A stretch of 64,000 nt of DNA from Pseudovibrio exalbescens DSM 16456 (GTDB lineage Bacteria; Pseudomonadota; Alphaproteobacteria; Rhizobiales; Stappiaceae), in NCBI RefSeq assembly GCF_000422785.1, contig NZ_KE383919.1:124001-188000 (forward strand). Reading direction: 5' to 3'. Numbering within the stretch: position 1 is the stretch's first letter; every line of letters begins with the position of its first letter. This document shows, one piece after another, positions 1 through 13,204 of the stretch. The notes beneath the pieces were generated by a model. The model searched no databases. It had not been told where the DNA came from and saw nothing but the letters and a program-made list of their open reading frames with translations. The position numbers and the translations under genes are program-made.

Positions 1-871
1 GCGACGCGGGCACCCTGCCCAGCGCTTCCACAATGGCTGTGACCTTTCGTACCTGTTCGGCGTTGGAACGAGCAAGCTGCCCACGTGCAATCATGAGCGA
101 GTCTTCAAGCCCAACTCGAACATGCCCGCCCATGGCCGCGGCAATGGCGGCAAAATTCATCTGGTGCCGCCCCGCTGCCAGAACAGAGAACGAAAAGTCA
201 TCGCCAAACAACTTCTGGGCTGTAGCTACCAAATGTGTCAAATGATCGGGATCGGCGCCAACACCACCTAAAACACCAAAAACAAACTGAATAAACAGCG
301 GGGCCTTGATCAACCCACGGTCGAGAAAGTGGGCCAGCATGTAAAGATGACCAATGTCATAAACCTCGAATTCGAAGCGCGCTCCGCGCTCCTGGCCGAG
401 TTTGGTCAAGACGGTCGCAATGTCTCGCGGCGTGTTCTTGAAGACCAGATCATCAGAGTTTTCCAGAAACGGTTTTTCCCAGTCGAACTGCCAGTTGGTA
501 AACCGGTCCGCAGCCGGATAGAGCGCAAAATTCATCGTGCCCATGTTGAGCGAACACATCTCCGGTTTGAACTGAAGCGGCGCCTGCAAGCGCTCTTCCA
601 GCGTCATGACCGCACTGCCACCGGTAGACAGGTTCAGAACAGCATCACATGAGCGCGCTACCTGCGGCAGATACGCAGCAAAATGCGCTGGATCCGCTGA
701 CGGGCGACCAGTTTGAGGGTCGCGGGCATGAAGATGCAATATGGCGGCCCCTGCATGGGCGGCCTCAATGGCCTGCTCGGCGATGTCCTGCGGACGATAT
801 GGCAGGTGCGGCGACATGGTCGGAGTATGAATCGACCCCGTCACCGCGCAGGTGATGATGATTTTTGACAT
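1..871 (-). CDS. Beta-keto acid cleavage enzyme (BKACE, DUF849), 3' end cut by window
   Basis: BKACE enzymes condense a beta-keto acid with acetyl-CoA and release acetoacetate plus the CoA ester of the remaining chain, using a divalent metal. The translated frame begins MSKIIITCAVTGSIHTPTMS. It carries the metal-binding H-x-H of the family at residues 46 and 48 (ILHLHARDP), a glycine-serine turn (NLSTGGS) and the late VRVGLEDS motif. About 290 codons are inside the window and the stop is not, which fits the usual length near 300. It lies 13 bp behind the aminotransferase gene and is the last visible gene of the transporter operon. From memory, the founding 3-keto-5-aminohexanoate enzyme has a Glu close to residue 14. 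Here that region reads TGSIHT, so the substrate is probably different. Family call secure; substrate unknown. Confidence 0.93.
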   Translation of the reverse strand, partial: MSKIIITCAVTGSIHTPTMSPHLPYRPQDIAEQAIEAAHAGAAILHLHARDPQTGRPSADPAHFAAYLPQVARSCDAVLNLSTGGSAVMTLEERLQAPLQFKPEMCSLNMGTMNFALYPAADRFTNWQFDWEKPFLENSDDLVFKNTPRDIATVLTKLGQERGARFEFEVYDIGHLYMLAHFLDRGLIKAPLFIQFVFGVLGGVGADPDHLTHLVATAQKLFGDDFSFSVLAAGRHQMNFAAIAAAMGGHVRVGLEDSLMIARGQLARSNAEQVRKVTAIVEALGRVPAS

Positions 872-884
872 GGCCCTTGGGATC

Positions 885-2240
885 CTAGCCTGCTTTCAAC
901 AAGTCCGGCTTCAGGTCGTTGGTGAAGGTGGTCAAGGAAGCATCCAACGTGGTGAGAATCTCATCCAGGTGGTTTGCTGTTGCTATCATGGGCGGACAAA
1001 CGAGGAAGTGGTCCCCAGTGTACCCACCCCGCGTCCGCCGCGAGTAGATGATGAGCCCCTTGTCGTAGGCGATTTCCACCAGCTTGTCGAAGGCCCCGGC
1101 TTCCCGAGGCAATGGGGCCATGGTCTCTCGGTCGGCCACCAACTCGAAAGCAAGGAGCAACCCTTTTCCGCGCACGTCGCCTATCAACTCGTGGCGCTGC
1201 ATCAGTTGTTGCAATCCAGCTTTGAGCTCCGCTCCAATTGACGACGCATTCGCCATCATCTGGTGAGCTTCAATTTCCTCGATTACAGCCAACCCGGCAG
1301 CACACGCCAACGGATTGCCGGCATAAGTGTAGCCATGGATAAAGCCCCCCTTGTCCAACACCGGCTCGACAATCCGCTCATGCGCAATCATGGCCCCCAG
1401 CGGTGCATAGCCCGCACCGAGGCCCTTGGAGAGCACCAGAATGTCTGGCTCCACCTGCCAATGATCACCAGCGAAGAAAGCTCCTGTACGGCCCCCGCCG
1501 GTCATAACCTCGTCATGGATCAACAGAACACCATAGCGCCGACAAATCTCCGAGATTCTCTGCATGTAGCCTTTCGGCGGTGGCAAAGCCCCGGTTGAGG
1601 CCCCGCCGACTGGTTCGACCATGAAAGCCAGAACAGTCTCAGGGCCTTCCTGCAGAATGGCCTCCTCAAGCATATCCGCATAGAATTTACCGGTCGCCTC
1701 GTCTTCCGGATCCAATCCGTCCAGATAGGCCCGTGGTGCGGGGATCTTCGGCATGGATTGCATCATGGGATCAAAGGGTGCCGTCATGGGCGCATACCCC
1801 GTGAGAGCCAGTGCCCCGAGTGTGCAGCCATGGTAGCTGGGATAGCGCGAGATAACCTTGTAACGCTGGCTGTCCCCGGTTGCCACCGCATGCTGGCGCG
1901 CCAGCTTGATGGCACTCTCCACTGCCTCTGAACCGCCGGAAACGAAAAACACCTTTTCCAGCCCTTCAGGAGCCAGAGATGCCAGCTTTTGAGCGAGTTG
2001 CTCGGCCGGCTCCGTTTCAAAGTGCAAGCGGTATCCAAAGCTGGACTTGTCCATCTGCCGGCGCATGCATTCCAATACATGCGGATTTGAGTGCCCAATG
2101 TTGCACACCATGGCCCCGGAGGACCCGTCGAGATAACGCTTGCCGTCTACATCCCACATGTAGACCCCGCGCGCCTGATCCAGCAGCGGGCGCCTTCGGC
2201 GGGATTGATAAAACAGCTTGCTTTCCGGGCGTTGTGTCAT
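885..2240 (-). CDS. Class III PLP-dependent aminotransferase
   Basis: This is a 451-residue fold-type I class III transaminase (omega-amino acid:pyruvate / 4-aminobutyrate type), which moves an amino group from an amine or omega/beta-amino acid to a keto acid. Visible landmarks: PLP phosphate loop SGGSEA (101-106), HDEVMTGGGRTG with the ring-binding Asp243, and LSKGLGAGY with the Schiff-base Lys272. The start is the ATG at 2240, because it overlaps the stop of the ATPase gene in an ATGA arrangement. An upstream non-ATG start at 2273 would lie inside that gene. It sits between transporter genes and the BKACE gene, so its product is plausibly the beta-keto acid, or a precursor of it, that BKACE cleaves. 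The exact amino donor cannot be told from sequence. Confidence 0.93.
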   Translation of the reverse strand: MTQRPESKLFYQSRRRRPLLDQARGVYMWDVDGKRYLDGSSGAMVCNIGHSNPHVLECMRRQMDKSSFGYRLHFETEPAEQLAQKLASLAPEGLEKVFFVSGGSEAVESAIKLARQHAVATGDSQRYKVISRYPSYHGCTLGALALTGYAPMTAPFDPMMQSMPKIPAPRAYLDGLDPEDEATGKFYADMLEEAILQEGPETVLAFMVEPVGGASTGALPPPKGYMQRISEICRRYGVLLIHDEVMTGGGRTGAFFAGDHWQVEPDILVLSKGLGAGYAPLGAMIAHERIVEPVLDKGGFIHGYTYAGNPLACAAGLAVIEEIEAHQMMANASSIGAELKAGLQQLMQRHELIGDVRGKGLLLAFELVADRETMAPLPREAGAFDKLVEIAYDKGLIIYSRRTRGGYTGDHFLVCPPMIATANHLDEILTTLDASLTTFTNDLKPDLLKAG

Positions 2241-3322
2241 GCTGCAGCCTCCGGCAACAGGGTGCAATCCCATCCCCTTACGTTCACGGAGACTTCTGCC
2301 CCTTCTTCAAACGGATGTTCCTTGATCATATTAAGCGCCTGCAGCTGAGTATCCCCCACCCGCACAAAATAGCGCACAGCCTGACCCTGATAGTCGACCG
2401 CCTCGATACGGCCCGGCACACTAATGGCGCCGTCCATTGTTTGACCGGCTGGCTCAACATGCACTTTCTCGGCACGAACAATCAGCTGGGAGCGTCCCTC
2501 GCCCTCGATCTGGGGCGCGCGCTTGCGTGGCAGCACCAGCCGACCGAAGTGGTTGGTTTCCACTTGAATGTCCTCAGCGGCCATAACCTGTGTCGTGGCG
2601 GGCAACACGTTGGAGGCGCCCAGAAAGCGGGCCACAAACTCGGTTGCCGGCGTGTTGTAAACCGCTTCCGGCTGTCCCTGCTGCTCAATGCGCCCTGCCG
2701 ACATGACAACGATCTCATCAGACATGGCAAGAGCCTCCGACTGATCGTGGGTTACGAAGACGGTGGTAATGCCAATCTGATGCTGAATGCGCTTAAGCTC
2801 CACGCGCATATCCTCGCGCAAATTGGCGTCCAGAGCCGATAGCGGCTCGTCCAACAACAAAACATCCGGCTCAATGACAATGGCGCGGGCAAGAGCTATT
2901 CGCTGCTGCTGGCCACCAGACAAGGCCTTGGGGTAGCGATCGGCTACGTGAGGCAGTTGCACGAGATCCAACACATCGCGGACCCGTCGCGCTGTTTCCT
3001 GCTTCGAAACGCCCCGATATTTCAAGCCAAAGGCGATATTCTCGAAAATGGTCTTGTGCGGAAACAAGGCATAGTTCTGGAACACAATGCCCAGATTCCG
3101 TTTGTAGATCGGCAAGTTGTTGACTGATTTGCCCTTGATGAAAATCTCGCCGTCCGAGGGATCCAAAAGCCCGGCGATCATGCGCAGTGTCGTCGTCTTG
3201 CCGCACCCGGATGGTCCCAAAAGGGTGAGAAAGCTTCCTTCTGGGATATGCAAGGAGGTGGGATGAACGGCTGTGAACCCGCCAAACCTTTTACTGACAT
3301 TCTCTAGTGTTACCGTGCCCAC
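2237..3322 (-). CDS. ABC transporter ATP-binding protein, PotA/spermidine-putrescine type
   Basis: The 361-residue ATPase powers the importer encoded upstream. It has Walker A GPSGCGKTT, Q-loop VFQNYALFPH, signature LSGGQQQRIALARA, Walker B VLLLDEPLSALD and switch histidine VTHDQSEA. The last 120 or so residues form a TOBE-type regulatory domain, as in PotA, FbpC and MalK. It is the fourth gene of the minus-strand operon, 74 bp after the binding-protein gene, and its stop overlaps the aminotransferase start by 4 bp, which suggests translational coupling. The family covers polyamine, opine, iron and phosphonate importers. The PotBCD-like partners favour a small cationic amine or amino acid. 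Subfamily good, ligand unproven. Confidence 0.95.
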   Translation of the reverse strand: MGTVTLENVSKRFGGFTAVHPTSLHIPEGSFLTLLGPSGCGKTTTLRMIAGLLDPSDGEIFIKGKSVNNLPIYKRNLGIVFQNYALFPHKTIFENIAFGLKYRGVSKQETARRVRDVLDLVQLPHVADRYPKALSGGQQQRIALARAIVIEPDVLLLDEPLSALDANLREDMRVELKRIQHQIGITTVFVTHDQSEALAMSDEIVVMSAGRIEQQGQPEAVYNTPATEFVARFLGASNVLPATTQVMAAEDIQVETNHFGRLVLPRKRAPQIEGEGRSQLIVRAEKVHVEPAGQTMDGAISVPGRIEAVDYQGQAVRYFVRVGDTQLQALNMIKEHPFEEGAEVSVNVRGWDCTLLPEAAA

Positions 3323-3352
3323 GCCAAACTCTCCAACTTTCCTGTTCTTCTT

Positions 3353-3387
3353 GCGGGGCGCGCCGCCTTCAAAGTGCGACGCGCCGC
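3353..3387 (-). other. Stem-loop between binding-protein and ATPase genes
   Basis: GGCGCG (3357-3362) can pair with CGCGCC (3380-3385) in the 74-bp gap between the binding-protein stop and the ATPase start. No strong T-run follows, so it is more likely a stabilising or attenuating hairpin than a full terminator. Such hairpins often lower ATPase expression relative to the binding protein. Weak evidence. Confidence 0.3.
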
Positions 3388-3396
3388 GATGTCAGC

Positions 3397-4536
3397 TTAG
3401 TAGCCCTTCTGAACCCGGCCGAACGTCTTGGACCATTCAGCCTCGTTACCGTTCCAGTATGCAGGATCAGCAAAGGTCAGACCGTTCAAGGTTCCGGTTG
3501 GATCGAACGCAGGAAGTGTAGGCACCTTCTTGCCCAGATCGACCTTGTTGGGATCCAACGCAGGCGGATAATTCTGGCCTTCAGCCACGGCCACCGCTGT
3601 ATCGCGCTCAAGCATGAAATTCAGCAGCTCTTCACACTCGGCCATCGGCGACCCCTTCATGACAAACAGGCACTCCTGCCACCCGAAACTGTTGGGCGGA
3701 TCGTAGTAACCAATATCGTGCCCCTGCTCCTGCAGCGCATAAATGCGGCCGGACCAGCCTTCAGTGACGTAGATTTCCTCTTCCGCCAGCAAAGACATCA
3801 ACTCAGCACCGGAGTTCCAGTATTTCAATGCCAGGTCCCGGTGGGTTCGGATGGCATCCCAAACGGCGTCCATATCCTCAGCCCCATTCGGGTTCTGGCC
3901 CGTTTGCAGGGACCCGTACCAGATACGAGTGCGCCAATCGCTCCAACCGCCGATCTTGTTCTTGAACTTTTCTTCAAGAAGGATGCGAGCGCCTTTTTCC
4001 TTCATCTCGTCATCGGAAATGAACTTGCGATTATAGGCCAGACCCGTCGTGCCATAGTCGTAAGGGACACACGACAAGGTGCCGCCGGTCACATTGCGGA
4101 AAACATCAATCAGTTTCGGAATGACGTTCGCAAGGTTCGGGATATTGGCCTCGTTCAACTCCGAGGCAAGGCCAAGGTTGTGATAGCGGGCGTAGTCGAA
4201 CACGCCGGACAGATGGGCAATGTTGTATTCACCGGGCTGGCTGGCCTTGACGCGCGACAGATATTCATCGCCACCGCCAAACGTGCCATCAACCACGTTG
4301 ATACCCGTCGCGTTGGTGTATGGATCGAAGGCATGTTTACGGAAAGCTTCCGAAACAACCCCGCCCCAACCGTCAAAGCGAACTTCACTCACGGCCGCCA
4401 ATGCGCCCTTGGAAAACGGCATCTGGACCCCGTAAGCCAGACCCGCAGCCCCTAAAAGCCCGAGAAATTTGCGGCGGGAAAGATCGCCATTACCATAGCG
4501 CTCAAGCAAGCGCTCGTATCGTTTCGTATTGTCCAT
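3397..4536 (-). CDS. Extracellular solute-binding protein, PotD/PotF-like, Tat-exported
   Basis: This 379-residue periplasmic binding protein is of the polyamine/family 1 type. A twin-arginine signal is clear: SRRKFLGLLGAAGLAYG at residues 20-36, followed by an Ala-rich cleavage region (GALAA). The mature part keeps the class pattern, including SCVPYDYGTTGLAYN near 150-165 (the PotD core contains a similar VPYxWGTTGL segment) and EGWSGRIYALQEQG. The start at 4536 has a GAGGG Shine-Dalgarno a few bases upstream. Tat export implies folding before export, which is less common for binding proteins than Sec export but is known in alphaproteobacteria. It lies between the permease genes (32 bp) and the ATPase gene. 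Confidence 0.93.
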   Translation of the reverse strand: MDNTKRYERLLERYGNGDLSRRKFLGLLGAAGLAYGVQMPFSKGALAAVSEVRFDGWGGVVSEAFRKHAFDPYTNATGINVVDGTFGGGDEYLSRVKASQPGEYNIAHLSGVFDYARYHNLGLASELNEANIPNLANVIPKLIDVFRNVTGGTLSCVPYDYGTTGLAYNRKFISDDEMKEKGARILLEEKFKNKIGGWSDWRTRIWYGSLQTGQNPNGAEDMDAVWDAIRTHRDLALKYWNSGAELMSLLAEEEIYVTEGWSGRIYALQEQGHDIGYYDPPNSFGWQECLFVMKGSPMAECEELLNFMLERDTAVAVAEGQNYPPALDPNKVDLGKKVPTLPAFDPTGTLNGLTFADPAYWNGNEAEWSKTFGRVQKGY

Positions 4537-4567
4537 GCGTCCCTCTGTGTTTTTGTGTGAAGGTGAT

Positions 4568-5353
4568 TTAAGTATTTATTTTTCCTGCCATTCTTCTGGC
4601 GATGGCAGCTCCGAGTAGTGGAAGCCCGACGGTAAGAAGGATCATCACCGTTCCCAGCGCATTGATTTCTGGAGAAATGGAATTGCGCAGCATGGCGAAG
4701 ATCTGGGTTGGAACCGTTTCCACCCCTCCCGGCTTCCAGAACAATGTTCCGGTGATATCGTCAAAACTGATGGTGAAAGCGAACAGCATGCCCGCAAAAA
4801 TGGCTGGAGCCATGAGCGGTAGTGTGATCTGAAAGAAGGTCTGCACCGGATTGGCACCAAGGCTCAGGGCTGCCTCCTCGTATTCCCGTTTGATTGCCAC
4901 AAGCCGCGCTTGGACCACCAACACGACGAATGGCAGGGTAAACACCACGTGCCCCATGAGCAGCATGCCGAAGCTCTTGTTCAGGGACAAGAAGTTCAGG
5001 AACAGCAACAAGGCAACAGCCAAAACAACTTCGGGAATGAGAATGGGTGCGATCAACAACATGGAGATCACCGCCCGTCCGGGCACCTTGTAGCGTACCA
5101 GAGCCATGCTGGCCAAAACACCCAGCACGGTCGAGATCATGGCCGTACACAAACCCAGAATGAAAGAAGTGCGGAAGGCCCGGAGTATGGCTTCATTGGA
5201 GAACAGCTCGGCAAACCAGCGCAATGAAACACCCGTCATGGGAAAGCTGCCAAACTGGCTCGCATTGAAGCTGAGCAGCACCACCACCGCAACCGGCAAG
5301 AACATGAAAAGATAGACCAGAAACGCCCAGCCACGAACAAGAAACCAACCCAT
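4568..5353 (-). CDS. ABC transporter permease, PotC-like
   Basis: The 261-residue inner-membrane permease has six predicted hydrophobic segments, starting with FLVYLFMFLPVAVVVLLSF. The cytoplasmic EAA loop that contacts the ATPase is visible as EEAALSLGANPVQTFFQ. It is the second permease of the operon. Its ATG follows the TAG of the first permease with one base between, so the two are almost certainly translated together and form the heterodimeric channel. PotC-type permeases are about 260-290 residues, so it is complete. Confidence 0.94.
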   Translation of the reverse strand: MGWFLVRGWAFLVYLFMFLPVAVVVLLSFNASQFGSFPMTGVSLRWFAELFSNEAILRAFRTSFILGLCTAMISTVLGVLASMALVRYKVPGRAVISMLLIAPILIPEVVLAVALLLFLNFLSLNKSFGMLLMGHVVFTLPFVVLVVQARLVAIKREYEEAALSLGANPVQTFFQITLPLMAPAIFAGMLFAFTISFDDITGTLFWKPGGVETVPTQIFAMLRNSISPEINALGTVMILLTVGLPLLGAAIARRMAGKINT

Positions 5354-5354
5354 C

Positions 5355-6221
5355 CTACTGTAACCCCTTCATGAGTTGCGTCATGCCCAGATACCGGTTG
5401 TAGACCATCACAACAGCGCCCAGAACCACCAGCAACATCAAGGACAAGGCCGAGCCAAGCGGCCAGTTCAACTGGGTGATGATGGCTTCAAAAACGAGGT
5501 TGGCGAACATGGCATCGGTCGGTCCACCGAGAACCAGCGGCGTGATGTAGGTGCCCGCGCCCAAAACGAAACACAGCAACCCGCCTGCCGCCAGCCCGGG
5601 CAGAGACAGGGGCAATGTCACCTCAAGAAAGGCCCTCCATCGGTTGGCCCCCAGGGAGCACGCCGCATCTTCCAGCGTGCGATCAATACCTTCAAGGCTC
5701 ACGTAGACATTCAGGATCATGAAGGGCAGCAGGAAATGAACCAGCCCGAGAATGACGGTTGCCTCGTTGTAAAGCATCTGGATGGGTTCGCTGGTCAGCC
5801 CCACCGACATCAGCGCCCAGTTGAAGGCCCCGGAAACGCCCAGAATGTTGATCCAGGACATTGTACGAATGATATAGCTGATCCAGAACGGCAGCATCAA
5901 AAGCAGAAGCAGCACCAACCGATTGCCATTTGAACGAGCAATGAAGTAGGCCGTCGGATAGCCTGCCAGTGCACATACCACGGTGGTGATCAGCGCAATC
6001 TTGATCGTGTTCAGAAGAATGTCGCGATAGAACGGGTCCGTCAGCGACTCGACCCAATTGTCCAGAAAAAAGCCAACCTGATCCGCCCCGGTCGCTGTAC
6101 GCAGCCAGAACGAATAGACCACTACAAACCCCAGCGGCACAATGAGCAGTAGCCCAATCGTGCTTAGCGCAGGCGTAAGTAGAATGATCGGCTGTCGCGC
6201 TTCGCGCGTCTCCACCGTCAT
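5355..6221 (-). CDS. ABC transporter permease, PotB-like
   Basis: The 288-residue permease is the first gene of the operon. An N-terminal transmembrane helix (ALSTIGLLLIVPLGFVVVYS) is followed by five more hydrophobic stretches. The EAA loop reads LEDAACSLGANRWRAFLEV. Its start lies 123 bp from the divergent LysR gene, so the shared gap should hold the operon promoter and operator. Together with the PotC-like permease, Tat binding protein and PotA-like ATPase it makes a complete importer. Length and topology are normal for PotB/HisM-type proteins. Confidence 0.94.
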   Translation of the reverse strand: MTVETREARQPIILLTPALSTIGLLLIVPLGFVVVYSFWLRTATGADQVGFFLDNWVESLTDPFYRDILLNTIKIALITTVVCALAGYPTAYFIARSNGNRLVLLLLLMLPFWISYIIRTMSWINILGVSGAFNWALMSVGLTSEPIQMLYNEATVILGLVHFLLPFMILNVYVSLEGIDRTLEDAACSLGANRWRAFLEVTLPLSLPGLAAGGLLCFVLGAGTYITPLVLGGPTDAMFANLVFEAIITQLNWPLGSALSLMLLVVLGAVVMVYNRYLGMTQLMKGLQ

Positions 6222-6299
6222 ATGATATCCCTCTTGGAAGTTTTATAGGTGTTTTTACTTGACGCTAGAGTTGCAGAGCCCTAACCATTGAGCAAATAG

Positions 6300-6319
6300 A
6301 TAATCGGAATTTTGATTAT
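6300..6319. promoter_or_regulatory. Inverted repeat in the LysR/transporter intergenic gap (candidate operator)
   Basis: ATAATC (6300-6305) and GATTAT (6314-6319) form a perfect 6-bp inverted repeat with an AT-rich 8-bp spacer, about 25 bp before the LysR start and 80 bp before the transporter start. LysR-type regulators usually bind AT-rich interrupted dyads in exactly this kind of divergent gap. The site is inferred from position and symmetry only. Confidence 0.45.
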
Positions 6320-6344
6320 AAATCTCATCAATAGGCGCAGTTAA

Positions 6345-7346
6345 GTGATCGACTCTGCTGAACGACTTGCTCGCAATCTGGACTGGAATCTGCTGCGTAC
6401 GTTCATGGTCATCGCGCGTTCCGGCAGCATCACTCAGGCAGCCACAACTTTGCGGCTCAAGCAACCTACCGTCTCAAGCGCACTCAAGCGTCTGGAAGAC
6501 CACCTGGACCGCAAACTGGTCGTGCGCACGCCGGGTCATTTTCACCTGACTGAAGCCGGCAAGATGCTGTACGAGGAAACCGTTGAGATCTACGGTTCGA
6601 TCCTGCGCCTGGACACGATCATGCGCGAGATCACAGATGCCGTGCGTGGCCATGTGCGCATCGCTATGGCATCGCATGTGACATGTCCCCTACTCGATCA
6701 GGCACTGAGTGACTTTCATGAGGAACATCCGAATGCGACCCTCTCCATTGACATTGCCTCCAGTCGAGAGAGTTTGGCGGCGGTGAACGCAAGTCAGGCC
6801 TCTTTTGCGGTGTGTCTGGTACGGGACCGAAATCCGAGGCTGGAGTATCGTCGTCTTTTCCGGGAATTCTTCGGGTTGTTTTGCGGCCCCAAGCATCCCT
6901 TGTTTGGCCGTTCTGATCTGACCAAGTCCGATTTGGCGGGCCAGTCTTCAGTATCCTTCATCACGGACCAGATGAGCGAAGCCCTTCGTCCGGTCTCTTT
7001 GCTGCGCGCAGAGCTGGCTCTGGATGACCGGGTCGTAGCCACTTCGGCAAACCTAGAGGAGGTTCGCCGTCTGATTGTAGCCGGTCTGGGTGTTGGCCCC
7101 TTGCCGCTTCATGTGGTTGGGCGTGACTTGCGAGATGGTATCTTGTGGCAACTGCCGCCCTATGACAGTTTGCCTGCCATTGATGTGCATGTTGTCTGGA
7201 ACCCGAAGGCCAAGATGAACCGCGCGGAACAGGCCTTGCTGGCCAAGCTGCTGCACTTGATCGAGATGACCCCGATCGAGCAGCGCACCTATTCGCTTGA
7301 AACCATGAGTGAAAGAGGCCGCAGCGCCCACCTGCCGCTGCCATGA
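6345..7346 (+). CDS. LysR-family transcriptional regulator
   Basis: This 333-residue LysR-type regulator has an N-terminal winged helix-turn-helix (about 14-75: WNLLRTFMVIARSGSITQAA, then LKQPTVSSALKRLE), a linker helix and a periplasmic-binding-like effector domain (about 100-310). The start is GTG, preceded by AGG about 8 bases upstream. It is divergent from the amine-transport/aminotransferase/BKACE operon across 123 bp, the typical arrangement for a LysR protein that controls its neighbour in response to substrate or intermediate. The C-terminus runs about 20-30 residues past the usual end and is polar. Family certain; control of the neighbouring operon is inferred. Confidence 0.94.
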   Translation: MIDSAERLARNLDWNLLRTFMVIARSGSITQAATTLRLKQPTVSSALKRLEDHLDRKLVVRTPGHFHLTEAGKMLYEETVEIYGSILRLDTIMREITDAVRGHVRIAMASHVTCPLLDQALSDFHEEHPNATLSIDIASSRESLAAVNASQASFAVCLVRDRNPRLEYRRLFREFFGLFCGPKHPLFGRSDLTKSDLAGQSSVSFITDQMSEALRPVSLLRAELALDDRVVATSANLEEVRRLIVAGLGVGPLPLHVVGRDLRDGILWQLPPYDSLPAIDVHVVWNPKAKMNRAEQALLAKLLHLIEMTPIEQRTYSLETMSERGRSAHLPLP

Positions 7347-8539: not shown

Positions 8540-11500
8540 CTATCCATCCGCCTTTGGCACTTGAGCTGCCAGCATTTCCTCATGCACGCGGCTGAGATGA
8601 TGGTGACGCGGCTTGCTGAATCTGGCGAGTAACAGATAGGCGGCCGGGGTCACAAACAAGGTGGCAAAGGTGGCAAACCCAAGACCACCCACCATGACCC
8701 ACCCCAGCTCCATACGCGCTTCGGCGCCGGCGCCAAACGCCAGAACAAGGGGTACACCGCCCAGAACCGTGGAGATGACCGTCATCATGACGGGGCGCAA
8801 TCGCTGCAAGCAGGCCTGATGAATGGCCTGCCTCACATCATTTCCCTGCTCGCGCAACTGATTAGCGAACTCGACCAGAAGAATGCCGTTCTTAGCCATG
8901 ATGCCAACCAGAAGCACCATGCCGATCTGACTGTAGACATTGAGCGACCCGCCGGTCAGAGCGATAGCGAAGATCGCCGCCGCCAGACCGAACGGAACCG
9001 TCGACAAGATCACGATCGCACTGATGAAGCTCTCGAATTGAGCTGACAGCACAAGAAAGACAATCAGGATGGCAAAGCCGAACGTGATCAGAATGTTAGA
9101 GGAGGTCTGCTCCAATACCGCCGCTTCACTCAGTAGCGTTATGGAGACTTCCGACGGCAACACTTCATCGCCAATTCGCTGCAAGTCCTCAATCGCATGA
9201 GACAGGTCATATCCCTCTGCCAAGCCAATGGAGATGGGCACCGCACGCTGCTGGCGCTCTCGGGTCAGGGAGGGAGCAACCGCTTCCTCCGACACGCTCA
9301 CAATGGACGACATGGGCACCATGATACGGTCTGACGCCTTGACGAACAGGTTTTCCAGATCGCGCGTTGAGCGCAATGGCGTTGCACCTGCCTCCATGAT
9401 CAGTGGAATACTGTCGTCTTCCACGAACAGCTCGGCAACTTCCGATCCTTCCAGCAACATGCGCAAGGTTGCGGTGACGATCTGAGGCGACAGACCTAGG
9501 TCTTTTGCACGTTCACGGTCCACACTGAACAGCAACTGTGGCTGGGTGGTTTCATAATCGATGTTGGCGCGTCCAATCTTGTCACCCAACTCGCTTTGAA
9601 GTGCGTAGGTCAGATCCTGTGCGCCCTTGGCCAGCACATCGTAGTTGGTGCCGGTAAGTGCAAAGCTCAGCCCTTCGCCGGCCCCCCGAATGCCCAGCGT
9701 ATTCGGCTGAATCAGGAAGATATCAATTCCCTTGAGCTGGCGCAGGGCCTGATTCATCTCTGCGACAATGGCTTGCTGGCTGCGATCACGGTCCGACCAT
9801 CCTTGCAGGGGCATGATCAGGAAGCCTGTGTTTTTTGAATTGCGAATACCTGCGATCGTCATCAACGCTTGCGCTTCACCGCTATCAACATAACTGCGCG
9901 CGATGTCTTCGATTTCGCTGAGCTTGGACCGGGTGTAGTCCAGACTGGAGCCCTGAGGCGTGCGGGCGAACATCAACACGATGGCTCGATCTTCCAAGGG
10001 CGTCAACTCTTCCGGCAGGCTATTATAAAACTGCCAGCCCAACGCACCGAACCCGATTGAAATAATGACGACCAGGGCTGGCACTTTCAGCGCAACAGCC
10101 AGAATCCGCTCGTAAAGGGCGGCAAGCCGCTCGCCAATCCAGGTCACCGGCGCCCAAATGGGCGAGAACTCAGCTTCGTTCGGTTTAAGCGGCTTGAGCA
10201 AACGCGAGGCCATCATCGGGGCCAGCGTCAAGGCCACGAATGACGACAGTCCGACACAAATGGCCAGAACAAACCCGAACTCCGAAAACAACTTGCCCAC
10301 GCTGCCCGACAAGAACGAGATGGGAATGAAGACTGCGGCCAGCGTCGCCGTGGTGCTGATAACCGCGAAGAACACTTCCTTGGTGCCCAGAATGGCGGCC
10401 GCACGCGCGCCCTCTCCCTTGTGTATGCGCTTGGTAATGTTCTCCAGCACCACGATGGCATCATCAACCACCATGCCTGTGGCAAGCAACAATGCCAGCA
10501 AAGTGAGGATGTTCATGGAAAACCCGACCAACCAGATCCCCACAACGGCACCCGTTAGCGCAACCGGCACCGTGACTGCCGGGATCAAGGTGACACGCCA
10601 TGATCGCAAGAATACGAGAATGATGGCAATAACAATCACCGTGGCCAACAGCAGGCTGAATACAACTTCAGTTATGGCGCTTTCAATGAAAACCGCATCG
10701 TCCGACGTGATGTTGATGGAAACGTGATCTGGCAATTGCTGACGCAGCTCATCAATGACCGCGCGAACGCCCTGCGAAATCTCTATGGTGTTGGAACTGG
10801 CAGCACGCACAATGCCAAACCCAATGGCCCGTGCACCGTTGATGAACGCACCGGATGCTGCGTCGTCCGGACCATAGGTGACAATGGCCACATCTTTCAC
10901 GCGGGTTGTGGCATTGATCTTGGCGTTGGCAATGTCATCAGCGGTTTCAATGTCGCTGTCAGCGCGCACATACAGTTCCTGATAGGTGGTCTCCAGCGCG
11001 CCGCCAGAGGTATCCATGGCCAGTTCACTCAGCACGTCCCTCAGGTCTTGTGGTGTCAGGCCTCGACTGGAGAGCGCCGTCATGTCCAACGCGACCTTGA
11101 AGATGGGCTCTCGGCTGCCATAGACATCCACACTGGCCACACCCGGAACGGCGGCAATCCGATCCACGATCACATCCTCGGTGAGCGCGCTCAGATCCTC
11201 AATCAACATCTGAGAGGATGTAACGGTAGCCCGCATCACCGGTTCTGCGTCTGCGTCCGCTTTCACGACCACGGGCGTATCGGCGTCCTCAGGCAGGTCG
11301 CGAGCAGCACTACCAACTGCGTCGCGAATATCGTTTGCCGCTTCGCCAAGGTCCACACTGTCGTTGAACTCAACAGTCACGCGGCTGCGACCATAGCTTG
11401 ATGTGGACGAAATGGACAACACACCTGAGGTGCGCGCCACAGCCTCTTCCACCACACTGGTAATTTCAGCATCAACGACTTCGGGCGGGGACCCCTTGTA

Positions 11501-11689
11501 GGTGGTGGTGATCGAGATCACGGGACGGTCCACGTTGGGCATTTCCCGGATTTCGACGCCCAGCAAGGCCGCAACACCGGCAACCACAAGGATCAAGTTC
11601 AGGACAATGGCCAAGACCGGCCGGCGCACACACAGAGCATAAATGCCGCTGTAGAGCGCCTTGTCGGGAGAAGAGCTCGGCTTGTTCAT
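8540..11689 (-). CDS. RND efflux permease (HAE1/AcrB family)
   Basis: This 1049-residue inner-membrane proton/drug antiporter is the core of a tripartite pump. The N-terminal helix (PVLAIVLNLILVVAGVAALL), two large periplasmic porter loops and 12 predicted transmembrane helices match AcrB/MexB proteins of about 1040 residues. The proton relay is intact: the Asp-Asp pair in TM4 (GMVVDDAIVVLEN, near 405) and the TM10 Lys (GIMAKNGILLVEF, near 940). It follows its membrane-fusion partner by 87 bp on the same strand. No outer-membrane factor gene is adjacent, so it probably uses a TolC-like protein encoded elsewhere. Substrate not predictable. Confidence 0.95.
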   Translation of the reverse strand: MNKPSSSPDKALYSGIYALCVRRPVLAIVLNLILVVAGVAALLGVEIREMPNVDRPVISITTTYKGSPPEVVDAEITSVVEEAVARTSGVLSISSTSSYGRSRVTVEFNDSVDLGEAANDIRDAVGSAARDLPEDADTPVVVKADADAEPVMRATVTSSQMLIEDLSALTEDVIVDRIAAVPGVASVDVYGSREPIFKVALDMTALSSRGLTPQDLRDVLSELAMDTSGGALETTYQELYVRADSDIETADDIANAKINATTRVKDVAIVTYGPDDAASGAFINGARAIGFGIVRAASSNTIEISQGVRAVIDELRQQLPDHVSINITSDDAVFIESAITEVVFSLLLATVIVIAIILVFLRSWRVTLIPAVTVPVALTGAVVGIWLVGFSMNILTLLALLLATGMVVDDAIVVLENITKRIHKGEGARAAAILGTKEVFFAVISTTATLAAVFIPISFLSGSVGKLFSEFGFVLAICVGLSSFVALTLAPMMASRLLKPLKPNEAEFSPIWAPVTWIGERLAALYERILAVALKVPALVVIISIGFGALGWQFYNSLPEELTPLEDRAIVLMFARTPQGSSLDYTRSKLSEIEDIARSYVDSGEAQALMTIAGIRNSKNTGFLIMPLQGWSDRDRSQQAIVAEMNQALRQLKGIDIFLIQPNTLGIRGAGEGLSFALTGTNYDVLAKGAQDLTYALQSELGDKIGRANIDYETTQPQLLFSVDRERAKDLGLSPQIVTATLRMLLEGSEVAELFVEDDSIPLIMEAGATPLRSTRDLENLFVKASDRIMVPMSSIVSVSEEAVAPSLTRERQQRAVPISIGLAEGYDLSHAIEDLQRIGDEVLPSEVSITLLSEAAVLEQTSSNILITFGFAILIVFLVLSAQFESFISAIVILSTVPFGLAAAIFAIALTGGSLNVYSQIGMVLLVGIMAKNGILLVEFANQLREQGNDVRQAIHQACLQRLRPVMMTVISTVLGGVPLVLAFGAGAEARMELGWVMVGGLGFATFATLFVTPAAYLLLARFSKPRHHHLSRVHEEMLAAQVPKADG

Positions 11690-11776
11690 CTTAACATGTA
11701 CTCACGGGTTCATCGCAGAGGGGCTCGCGTGGGGGCGGAGCACCATCTGAGTTGATATGTGTGTCTTGGGGCTGTC

Positions 11777-12961
11777 TCAGGCTTCTGGCAGTGCAGAACC
11801 GTCTGCTGGGCCAGACGGTACCTTCAGCGAAAAGCCGGGATGTGCTTCCAAAGCGAGCGGCGCACCAGGACGCAACCCTCGTGTTGCCTCTGTGATAACC
11901 ACTTCACCAACCTTCAAATCGCCATCCACCAGGATGCTATCAGAATTGCGTTCGATGATGCGTACACTCACGCGCTCAGCCTTTTGCGCACGCGCAACCC
12001 ACACATAAGCGCCCTGTTGATCCCACTTCAATGCAAGCGGCGGAATAGCTGTCCAGCTTTCTCCTTCAAGCAACACACGCACGGAAAACGCCATGCCCGA
12101 CTTCAGCAAGCCTTCCGGGTTGCTGACTTGTGCACGCAGGCGCAGGGTTCGCGATGTCGCGTCCACTCTGTTGTCCAACGCAGTGATGGTGCCCTTGAAC
12201 TGGCGGCCCGGGACCGCATCCGTTGCCAACTCGACCGCGCCGCCGCGAGACACCTCGTTGGCAAACCGTTCGGGCACGACAAACTCAACCAAAATCTTGT
12301 TGCGATCATCCAGACCTGTCAGGCGGGTAGAAGCATCAACAAGATCCCCCACTTCTACGGCCACAATGCCCACCGTGCCAGAAAACGGTGCCACAATCTT
12401 GCGTTTTTGTAGGTCCAATTGCGCCTTTTCCAGCGCCAGCTGCGCCTTGTCGCGCGCGGTGCGCGCGTCACGTAACTGCACTTCGGAAATGGTTTGAGAT
12501 TTGATCAGGCGCTCATAGCGATCAACTTGATCAATCGCATCTCGCAGTTCTAGTTCGGCCTGCTTGACCGCCAACTCTTCATTGGCTTTATCCAGCGTGA
12601 TGACGGTTTGACCGGCCTCGACATAATCACCCGCCTGATAGGCGATGGTGGTCACACGGCCCGTCGTTTCGGGGTAGAGGTTGGTTGTTCGAACAGAGCG
12701 TCCGGTGCCAATGGCCCGAACGAACGTGTCGGTTTCCTCAAGTGTCACATTGCGGGCATGCACCGCAATCTTGCGTGGTGCGCCTCCTTGTGGCCCGGCA
12801 GCATGTGCCTCGGCTGCATTGGCCTGCAGCATGAACGTGCCCAACTCGTAAAAACCGGGCAAGGTTTTATTGGCTATCAACGGTTGTACCACGAAGTGGT
12901 AGCCAGCAATCAGCACCGCGGCCATGAAGCCCGCTGTGCCAACCTTTTTCAGAGCCCCCAT
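11777..12961 (-). CDS. RND efflux periplasmic adaptor (membrane fusion protein)
   Basis: The 394-residue adaptor is of the HlyD/AcrA family. It has an N-terminal membrane anchor (GTAGFMAAVLIAGYHFVV), split lipoyl halves (VTTIAYQAGDYVEAGQTV and IVAPFSGTVGIVAVEVGD), a coiled-coil hairpin between them (about 115-175) and beta-barrel and membrane-proximal domains. The ATG at 12961 was chosen because GGAG stands about 10 bases upstream. A longer frame from 13009 adds residues with no match to the family. It is the first gene of the pump operon, upstream of the permease. No repressor gene is adjacent, so regulation is not visible here. Confidence 0.93.
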   Translation of the reverse strand: MGALKKVGTAGFMAAVLIAGYHFVVQPLIANKTLPGFYELGTFMLQANAAEAHAAGPQGGAPRKIAVHARNVTLEETDTFVRAIGTGRSVRTTNLYPETTGRVTTIAYQAGDYVEAGQTVITLDKANEELAVKQAELELRDAIDQVDRYERLIKSQTISEVQLRDARTARDKAQLALEKAQLDLQKRKIVAPFSGTVGIVAVEVGDLVDASTRLTGLDDRNKILVEFVVPERFANEVSRGGAVELATDAVPGRQFKGTITALDNRVDATSRTLRLRAQVSNPEGLLKSGMAFSVRVLLEGESWTAIPPLALKWDQQGAYVWVARAQKAERVSVRIIERNSDSILVDGDLKVGEVVITEATRGLRPGAPLALEAHPGFSLKVPSGPADGSALPEA

Positions 12962-13204
12962 GGGAAGACACTCCAATCTCGTTTTGTCGTTTGGAACTAC
13001 GACAGGCACCTGCCTGCCACAGCGTTCGGCCCGTAACGCGTCAGGTTGGGTTATCTTTCATTATTCCCCACTGCCTTATTCCCCGAATCCGGCCTGGACG
13101 CTAGTGGCACATGTGCCGAATTGGTAACAAACCTATCGAAATTTCGCCGATTGATACATATTGATACACTTTTCAAGGCTCGTCGGACCACATGCCATAA
13201 TAGC

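Follow-up and report, generated by a model that had tools for sequence, protein, structure and literature searches.

Organization of the locus

The DNA analysed here, referred to below as the window, is a stretch of 64,000 nucleotides from Pseudovibrio exalbescens DSM 16456 (contig NZ_KE383919.1; G000:C5:124001-188000 in our numbering), and its left end lies within a catabolic operon. Six minus-strand genes encode two permeases, a binding protein and an ATPase resembling Pot importers, a class III aminotransferase and a beta-keto acid cleavage enzyme (BKACE), and they are divergent from a LysR-family regulator gene situated 123 bases away (Table 1). This layout, already given in a preliminary description based on the window alone, was confirmed by the coordinates and Pfam scores. 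From the PotB-like to the BKACE gene, the distances between consecutive genes are 1, 31, 74, -4 and 13 bases, the 4-base overlap of the aminotransferase gene with the PotA-like gene corresponding to a start at position 2240 (its longest open reading frame begins at 2273). The window opens inside the BKACE gene, called there as 2-871, and the end of this gene is located 58 bases left of the edge. Extension of the left boundary, as had been suggested, yielded the end of the BKACE gene and revealed that the operon continues, with overlaps or short gaps, with genes for a GNAT acetyltransferase, a histone deacetylase (HDAC)-fold protein, a flavin adenine dinucleotide (FAD) enzyme and RidA. In its full extent the operon unites acetyltransferase, transaminase, beta-keto acid cleavage and deacetylase genes, the gene set expected of a beta-lysine pathway. 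Other genera share this gene order, with BKACE proteins 60-74% identical in the linked loci defined below; the cluster is therefore not a chance arrangement but a real, widely conserved catabolic operon.

Table 1. Genes of the operon and its regulator (window positions, or positions on contig C5 where so marked)
Feature	Position	Strand	Supporting match
LysR-family regulator	6345-7346	+	Pfam LysR_substrate, 106.8 bits; HTH_1, 68.7
PotB-like permease	5355-6221	-	Best NCBIfam PotB model, 192.9 bits, below cut-off of 348
PotC-like permease	4568-5353	-	Best NCBIfam PotC model, 202.4 bits, below cut-off of 326
Periplasmic binding protein, PotD/GABA/opine-binding type	3397-4536	-	SBP_bac_8, 69.9 bits
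PotA-like ATPase with TOBE domain	2237-3322	-	TIGR01187 potA, 363.5 bits, above cut-off of 355.6; ABC_tran, 127.5
Class III aminotransferase	885-2240	-	Aminotran_3, 342.5 bits
BKACE, 309 aa	1-871, on to G000:C5:123942 outside the window	-	PF05853, 340.9 bits
GNAT acetyltransferase, 167 aa	C5:123439-123942, outside the window	-	Acetyltransf_1, 56.1 bits
HDAC-fold deacetylase, 340 aa	C5:122436-123458, outside the window	-	Hist_deacetyl PF00850, 238.9 bits
D-arginine dehydrogenase-like FAD enzyme, 366 aa	C5:121339-122439, outside the window	-	DAO, 179.3 bits
RidA	C5:120972-121382, true start probably further in	-	Ribonuc_L-PSP, 92.6 bits

Recurrence of the gene set around the aminotransferase

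BKACE relatives were searched for in 385 genomes of the window's class, 61 related genomes and 398 genomes of the phylum, and neighbourhoods were taken best match first (24 related loci, 40 of 101 other places in the class, 20 of 24 other places in relatives, 9 phylum places and the locus itself). A duplicate (L082, with the same BKACE as L025) was left out, resulting in 93 distinct loci. A locus was considered linked when an aminotransferase at least 50% identical to that of the operon lay within 6.5 kb on the same strand; fixed thresholds were applied to the other partners, except that the HDAC gene of L009, which is truncated where the contig stops, was scored manually as present. Forty-four loci contained this aminotransferase and 49 did not, proportions that are no frequency, since the loci were chosen by BKACE similarity.

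An amidohydrolase gene, from one of three unrelated families, was present at 41 of the 44 linked loci versus 3 of the 49 non-linked ones. Taken separately, HDAC genes were found at 34 linked and 3 non-linked loci, M20 (ArgE/DapE) genes at 6 and 0, and DMFA2 genes at 6 and 0. The corresponding counts for the remaining partners were: Pot-type binding protein, 27 and 1; GNAT, 25 and 2; FAD enzyme, 23 and 2; RidA, 18 and 0. GNAT and amidohydrolase genes occurred together at 22 linked loci. A family phylogeny had also been suggested in the preliminary description. In a BKACE tree of 91 rows (the broken copy of L109 and the partial one of L024 being kept out), the linkage label took 4 changes, compared with a mean of 30.4 in shuffles. 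This tree count is a fairer measure than the Fisher values given below, which ignore relatedness; near-copies remain in both. The comparison supports import, transamination to a beta-keto acid and BKACE cleavage in a beta-amino acid catabolic route, as had been read from the window. That reading captured the reaction core and lacked the genes for an acetyltransferase and an amidohydrolase that lie beyond the left edge.

The set varied in its details. Among linked loci without a full amidohydrolase gene, L013 and L014 keep an HDAC remnant. M20 proteins were found without an HDAC protein in L088, L093 and L101, and DMFA2 proteins in L095 to L097 and L137. Only four non-linked loci contained any partner (L015, L019, L024 and L132), and in one of them, L024, which carries HDAC and FAD enzyme genes without the aminotransferase, the contig begins inside the BKACE gene. 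The possibility that GNAT is missing where the importer brings in an already acetylated substrate was not supported: GNAT was present at 13 of 27 Pot-linked loci and at 12 of the 17 linked loci with another importer or none (Fisher P = 0.21). In L109 (G414:C7) the entire operon is present as an apparently decayed copy, with a stop within BKACE and gaps between the gene matches.

A relative of the divergent LysR gene was found again at many linked loci, while the importer varied between Pot and HisJ types. In the operon studied, the permeases gave BPD_transp_1 matches of 57.0 and 29.8 bits. The binding protein carries a twin-arginine signal (motif read by eye) and scored 30.1 bits with the PotD model NF007048, for which the cut-off is 582. 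It is 76-85% identical to 11 of its 12 aligned relatives and 60% identical to that of L132. Its structural model was poor (pLDDT 59.1), and the Foldseek matches were a mix of spermidine, GABA, opine and other binders.

Two alternative cleavage modules

To the 93 BKACE loci we added plasmid loci (L160 to L173) and loci found through the aminotransferase (L174 to L178), which are not counted among them. The aminotransferase search in the 385 class genomes gave 21 matches at an E value of 1e-150, 20 of which, including that of the operon, were at least 63% identical. In these 20 genomes, the gene stood beside BKACE in 16, beside a CoA-transferase pair in 3 (L174, L175 and L176) and beside neither in 1 (L177). 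The 21st match (L178; 52% identity) had none of the partner genes.

A CoA-transferase pair in place of BKACE was found at five loci in all (L168, L169 and L174 to L176), where the aminotransferase was 61-72% identical to ours; four of them also have an ArgE/DapE deacylase gene, three a thiolase gene and two a GNAT gene. The order in L175 and L176 is aminotransferase, GNAT, CoA-transferase A and B, and ArgE/DapE, with a thiolase added in L175. L168 and L169, on two Rhodobacterales plasmids, contain an amino acid ABC transporter, the aminotransferase, CoA-transferase A and B, ArgE/DapE, a thiolase, an amidohydrolase and an alanine racemase. A CoA-transferase plus a thiolase is the two-step equivalent of the one-step BKACE reaction. 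With thresholds of 45% identity for the CoA-transferase and 40% for the thiolase, over half the length, no relative of either L168 protein occurred at any of the 93 BKACE loci; conversely, BKACE was absent from all five CoA-transferase loci and, at an E value of 1e-60, from the whole genomes G194, G117 and G222. The BKACE and CoA-transferase modules are mutually exclusive. The thiolase or CoA-transferase that the preliminary description had expected past the window edge did not appear: within 20 kb to the left no genes like those of L168 were found, and in relatives such genes replace BKACE. Similarly, no relatives of the CoA-transferase, thiolase, racemase, M20D or thioesterase genes known from other loci were detected within 20 kb to the left and 14 kb to the right.

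BKACE

The BKACE protein belongs to PF05853, with a score well over the gathering score of 24.8. Its residues H46, H48, E167, E169, R252, E256 and D257 are near-invariant (98% or more) across 80 aligned sequences; the His pair, the Glu and the Arg-x3-Glu-Asp motif presumably form the active site, as in Kce. In the comparison with Kce the protein scored 229.8 against 382. The preliminary description had taken the TGSIHT stretch as an argument against the lysine-pathway substrate of Kce. The lack of the Kce Glu was borne out, the position being Ile14 in our protein (by eye, through an alignment of the distant BKACE of L026 to Kce 2y7d); the stretch itself is not specific to the operon, given that 3lot carries the same TG.IHT. 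We take this Glu to be number 14 of Kce and to contact the substrate amine; an Ile instead would fit a neutral substrate tail. Several positions differ between linked and unlinked loci, among them A87, F196, V200 and F228, and these could widen the pocket.

The protein also scored 465.8 bits, above the cut-off of 430, with NF053538 (3,5-dioxohexanoate:acetyl-CoA acetone transferase) on the 290 residues inside the window. This was not accepted as its function, since 3,5-dioxohexanoate is also an in vitro substrate of BKACE15, a related enzyme from Paracoccus whose physiological role is called unknown, with its gene context taken as a hint of aromatic degradation (PMC11961710). The equivalog apparently owes its name to in vitro activity, and this name can be misleading.

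Aminotransferase, acetyltransferase, deacetylase and flavoenzyme

The NCBIfam models nearest to the aminotransferase were PRK07483 (454.2 bits) and, second best, PRK06917/NF005375 (443.7 bits; cut-off 535), both below their cut-offs. NF005373 was likewise the second-best model for the M20 proteins. Each of the two, NF005375 and NF005373, exceeded its cut-off in 1 of 14 control genomes, the passing genome being unspecified, and Bacillus subtilis was in both match lists; NF005375 is probably a YodT-type model. The best Protein Data Bank (PDB) match of our protein was 3I4J, which is also given as the nearest PDB entry of YodT (BSU19740) in a table that lists both YodT and KamA (BSU19690) as SigE dependent (PMC6522883). 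No protein of the genome exceeded the cut-off of the 4-aminobutyrate transaminase model TIGR00700, for which the best match was the operon's own aminotransferase. This class III enzyme is proposed as an N6-acetyl-beta-lysine transaminase.

GNAT gave weak sequence matches and a confident structural model (pLDDT 93.9). The Foldseek matches were led by spermidine/spermine acetyltransferase (SSAT) and by thialysine acetyltransferases, a few of these entries having lysine or ornithine bound. Among the top 50, however, a Pseudomonas acetyltransferase of no assigned function reached a higher TM-score, and HPA2, RimI and an aminoglycoside acetyltransferase were present as well.

The HDAC-fold protein retains the fold and the conserved catalytic residues (His pair, DxH, Asp and Tyr), and its five best PDB sequences carry acetylpolyamine amido- or aminohydrolase names. 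The acids of the polyamine site, which we take to be E17, E106 and E117 of the Mycoplana acetylpolyamine amidohydrolase (APAH), are gone in 29 of 29 sequences, being replaced by Phe (29), by Val, Leu or Ala (26, 2 and 1) and by Ala or Ser (17 and 12).

The flavoenzyme matched 3nyc DauA at an E value of 1.2e-89, and its alignment with D-arginine dehydrogenase scored 304 bits. The two Arg and two Tyr residues that presumably bind the carboxylate of D-alpha-amino acids are kept in 23 of 23 sequences, while the residues that we number His48 and Glu87 are here Ile and Asp, respectively (the latter position holds 12 Glu, 10 Asp and 1 Gly among the 23). Flavoenzyme and RidA may either oxidise the substrate to the same keto acid or, with pyruvate accepting the amino group, recycle alanine.

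Proposed route and comparison with known systems

Probably, and with good support from the comparison of loci, the operon follows a general scheme in which an N-acyl-beta-amino acid is transaminated, cleaved in a CoA-dependent reaction and deacylated; the presence of acetyltransferase and amidohydrolase genes in the operon is the reason for placing an N-acyl intermediate in the route. As to the substrate, our preferred reading, to which we give a probability of roughly one half, is imported beta-lysine (3,6-diaminohexanoate) or N6-acetyl-beta-lysine. The Pot-type ABC transporter would bring it in, and GNAT would acetylate the terminal amine where needed. Such acetylation would be sensible, as it would block the ring closure by which the amino-ketone 6-amino-3-oxohexanoate, with its amine free, would form a five-membered imine. 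The class III aminotransferase would convert the 3-amino group to a ketone, giving 6-acetamido-3-oxohexanoate, which BKACE and acetyl-CoA would turn into 4-acetamidobutyryl-CoA and acetoacetate. The HDAC-fold enzyme would then strip the acetyl group and a thioesterase activity would free 4-aminobutyrate, leading to succinate, while acetoacetate would be converted to acetyl-CoA. A succinate-semialdehyde dehydrogenase and the A subunit of a 3-oxoacid CoA-transferase, each over its cut-off, are encoded in the genome.

The same order of reaction types was reportedly described by Barker for Pseudomonas B4, in which beta-lysine is said to be N6-acetylated and transaminated with 2-oxoglutarate, the resulting 3-keto-6-acetamidohexanoate being cleaved to 4-acetamidobutyryl-CoA and deacetylated to 4-aminobutyrate (activities given as EC 2.6.1.65 and EC 3.5.1.51). 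To our knowledge, no genes are known for that pathway; unlike it, a route established by biochemistry, the operon is known from genes alone. The closest operon is presumably kamA-yodP-yodQ-yodR-yodS-yodT of B. subtilis, which encodes lysine 2,3-aminomutase, an acetyltransferase, an M20 deacylase, a CoA-transferase pair and a class III aminotransferase. The two share the class III aminotransferase, a GNAT and an amidohydrolase, and the relatives L175 and L176 also share the CoA-transferase pair and the ArgE/DapE deacylase. The operon differs in having BKACE instead of the CoA-transferase, an HDAC instead of an M20 fold, a GNAT that is not AblB and its own importer, and in lacking a lysine 2,3-aminomutase. 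The HDAC protein has the APAH fold and retains the zinc-ligand motifs, the Tyr and the two catalytic His residues; it differs from APAHs at the acidic sites, where 3men, itself so named, also lacks the acids. A 3-dehydrocarnitine-type BKACE is a further member of the BKACE family. With Kce, BKACE15 and the enzyme of the deoxyribonate pathway our BKACE shares the Pfam family and the conserved active-site residues; its partners, an aminotransferase, an acetyltransferase and a deacylase, are unlike those of these systems, the deoxyribonate BKACE working with a dehydrogenase (PMC6365646). No such operon was found outside the window's own class in the 398-genome phylum sample (BKACE, E limit 1e-125). 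Searches of the literature on BKACE, beta-lysine catabolism, orphan activities and the yod genes revealed no assignment, in accordance with the earlier naming of the route as unassigned; a proposal in the 2014 BKACE survey or the 2011 Kce structure paper is possible.

As no KamA was found in the genome at an E value of 1e-40, beta-lysine would need an outside source. Such sources exist, ablA and N-epsilon-acetyl-beta-lysine being named as an osmolyte gene and its product in both bacteria and archaea (PMC9337991). We tentatively suggest, giving it somewhat less than an even chance, that the route degrades this osmolyte: bacteria, some of them marine, would feed on a solute of methanogens or salt-stressed bacteria; the operon would supply the genes for N6-acetyl-beta-lysine transaminase and 4-acetamidobutyryl-CoA deacetylase; and BKACE would have replaced the CoA-transferase and thiolase of a parallel lineage. 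If this were so, enzyme activities reportedly characterised decades ago without sequences would acquire genes, a BKACE clade labelled so far by in vitro activity alone would gain a physiological substrate, HDAC-fold "acetylpolyamine amidohydrolases" without the acidic polyamine site would be explained, and environmental turnover of N6-acetyl-beta-lysine could be traced in genomes. Even with another substrate, one aminotransferase accompanied by deacylases of three unrelated kinds, and by one or the other of two cleavage modules that are never found together, constitutes a testable pathway.

Several observations weigh against beta-lysine or against a fixed gene set. Lysine 2,3-aminomutase was not found in the genome at an E value of 1e-40 (it is required only where beta-lysine is made inside the cell), nor was AblB (TIGR03827; none at an E value of 0.001, with B. 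subtilis among the matching controls), and the operon's GNAT is not AblB. KamA-type genes occurred in 1 of 16 operon genomes versus 111 of 369 others (P = 0.047), none of them over the family cut-off. An association of KamA with the operon was thus rejected, the trend being opposite; with the four aminotransferase genomes lacking a BKACE link the count was 2 of 20 (G080 and G015). NF005375 is not specific to the operon's aminotransferase, a second aminotransferase of the genome scoring 430.0 bits versus 443.3. The NCBIfam label of BKACE names 3,5-dioxohexanoate. The flavoenzyme retains the residues presumed to bind the carboxylate of D-alpha-amino acids, and an alanine racemase gene is present in addition at three plasmid loci. 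Regarding gene content, no amidohydrolase was seen in linked locus L154; L015 and L019 combine BKACE, GNAT and HDAC without the aminotransferase, and L132 a Pot-type transporter, BKACE and a flavoenzyme, again without it, which suggests that the flavoenzyme can stand in for the aminotransferase by oxidising the substrate directly. L177 (G015) has the transporter, aminotransferase, HDAC and RidA, the one BKACE match of that genome being on another contig, and a Rhizobium CB3171 plasmid (L171) has the aminotransferase, GNAT and HDAC without BKACE. The sole match outside the class in the phylum sample (G781/L151) had no aminotransferase. Finally, some loci carry two amidohydrolases, M20 plus HDAC in L092, L156 and L157 and DMFA2 plus HDAC in L155 and L159; for this reason M20 and DMFA2 are not simple HDAC replacements, and an extra amide step may exist there.

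Alternative substrates

The same chemistry acting on a different carbon chain, such as beta-ornithine, 3,5-diaminohexanoate or an N-acyl conjugate, is rather unlikely. The comparative evidence sets reaction types and not chain length, the genome has no KamA at the threshold given above, and importers differ among loci. The NF053538 name, which corresponds to the keto form of 3,5-diaminohexanoate, would point the same way; it is weak evidence, given the in vitro activity described for BKACE15 (PMC11961710). What tips the balance toward beta-lysine is kamA-yod, the closest operon type with an indicated substrate.

Polyamine catabolism, which the preliminary description had left as an option, is improbable. 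According to this explanation, (acetyl)polyamines would be imported, GNAT and HDAC would cycle the acetyl group, the aminotransferase and flavoenzyme would oxidise the amine, and BKACE would act on a side product. The PotA score over the curated cut-off, the APAH names among the best matches of the HDAC protein, the SSAT-like fold of GNAT and a downstream Amidoligase_2 gene with a PuuD-like neighbour agree with it. BKACE, however, requires a beta-keto acid, and polyamine routes are not known to yield one. Moreover, the binding protein reached only 30 of 582 bits on the PotD model, and under the thresholds used the Amidoligase and PuuD-like genes were not seen again next to BKACE elsewhere. The 29 of 29 HDAC sequences without the presumed polyamine-site acids also disfavour polyamines; this loss is no more than suggestive, because proteins named APAH in the PDB vary at these sites (by eye, three acids in 3q9b and 6phr, one in 9gkz and none in 3men).

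Catabolism of a D- or N-acyl alpha-amino acid, on which flavoenzyme, RidA, alanine racemase and amidohydrolases would act before a beta-keto acid arises, is very improbable despite the 304-bit D-arginine dehydrogenase alignment, the conserved Arg and Tyr pairs and the three plasmid loci with a racemase and a further amidohydrolase, as the core set exists without flavoenzyme or RidA (e.g., Gemmobacter L010, L011, L016 and L027), no racemase relative stands at any of the 93 BKACE loci, and these enzymes could serve in alanine recycling instead, should pyruvate take up the amino group.

Plasmid loci and neighbouring genes

Among plasmid records, 151 contained a BKACE relative (E value of 1e-80) and 26 an aminotransferase relative (1e-100); 14 were inspected. 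Linked loci were found on plasmids of Parasedimentitalea marina (pW43C), Phyllobacterium zundukense, Sinorhizobium chiapasense (an unannotated record, analysed by tblastn), Shinella, Pararhizobium qamdonense and Roseateles XES5, whereas those of Microvirga, Chelatococcus, Azospirillum and Variovorax had BKACE without an annotated aminotransferase. Two of the 14 were of the CoA-transferase type, and a plasmid of Rhizobium RCAM05350 gave partial BKACE matches only. In L171, a 133-residue hypothetical gene (L171:9354-9755) lies between the aminotransferase and GNAT genes, at the place of BKACE in relatives.

The plasmids of Shinella sp. PSBB067 and Roseateles sp. XES5 (a record marked as unverified organism) contain an amino acid ABC transporter, the aminotransferase, BKACE, GNAT and HDAC, with a thioesterase gene across the LysR gene. 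The Shinella thioesterase gave its best match, at 26.9 bits and well short of the cut-off, to the C-terminal portion of a model for carnitine 3-dehydrogenase, and thioesterases of this kind occurred at none of the 93 BKACE loci, as was the case for alanine racemase relatives. On the L160, L168 and L169 plasmids, an alanine-racemase-family gene is located directly downstream of an M20D-type amidohydrolase gene, toward the aminotransferase.

Beyond RidA, G000:C5:119145-120991 encodes an Amidoligase_2 protein and, next to it, a Peptidase_C26 protein resembling PuuD; the two may form a gamma-glutamylation/deglutamylation pair. They were rejected as operon members for want of recurrence at other BKACE loci under the neighbourhood thresholds; unlinked locus L094 has a PuuD-like match of 36% at 5.4 kb from BKACE. 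To the right of the LysR gene, window positions 8540-13009 encode an RND-type efflux pump (1049 aa) and a membrane-fusion protein (410 aa), both named by eye.

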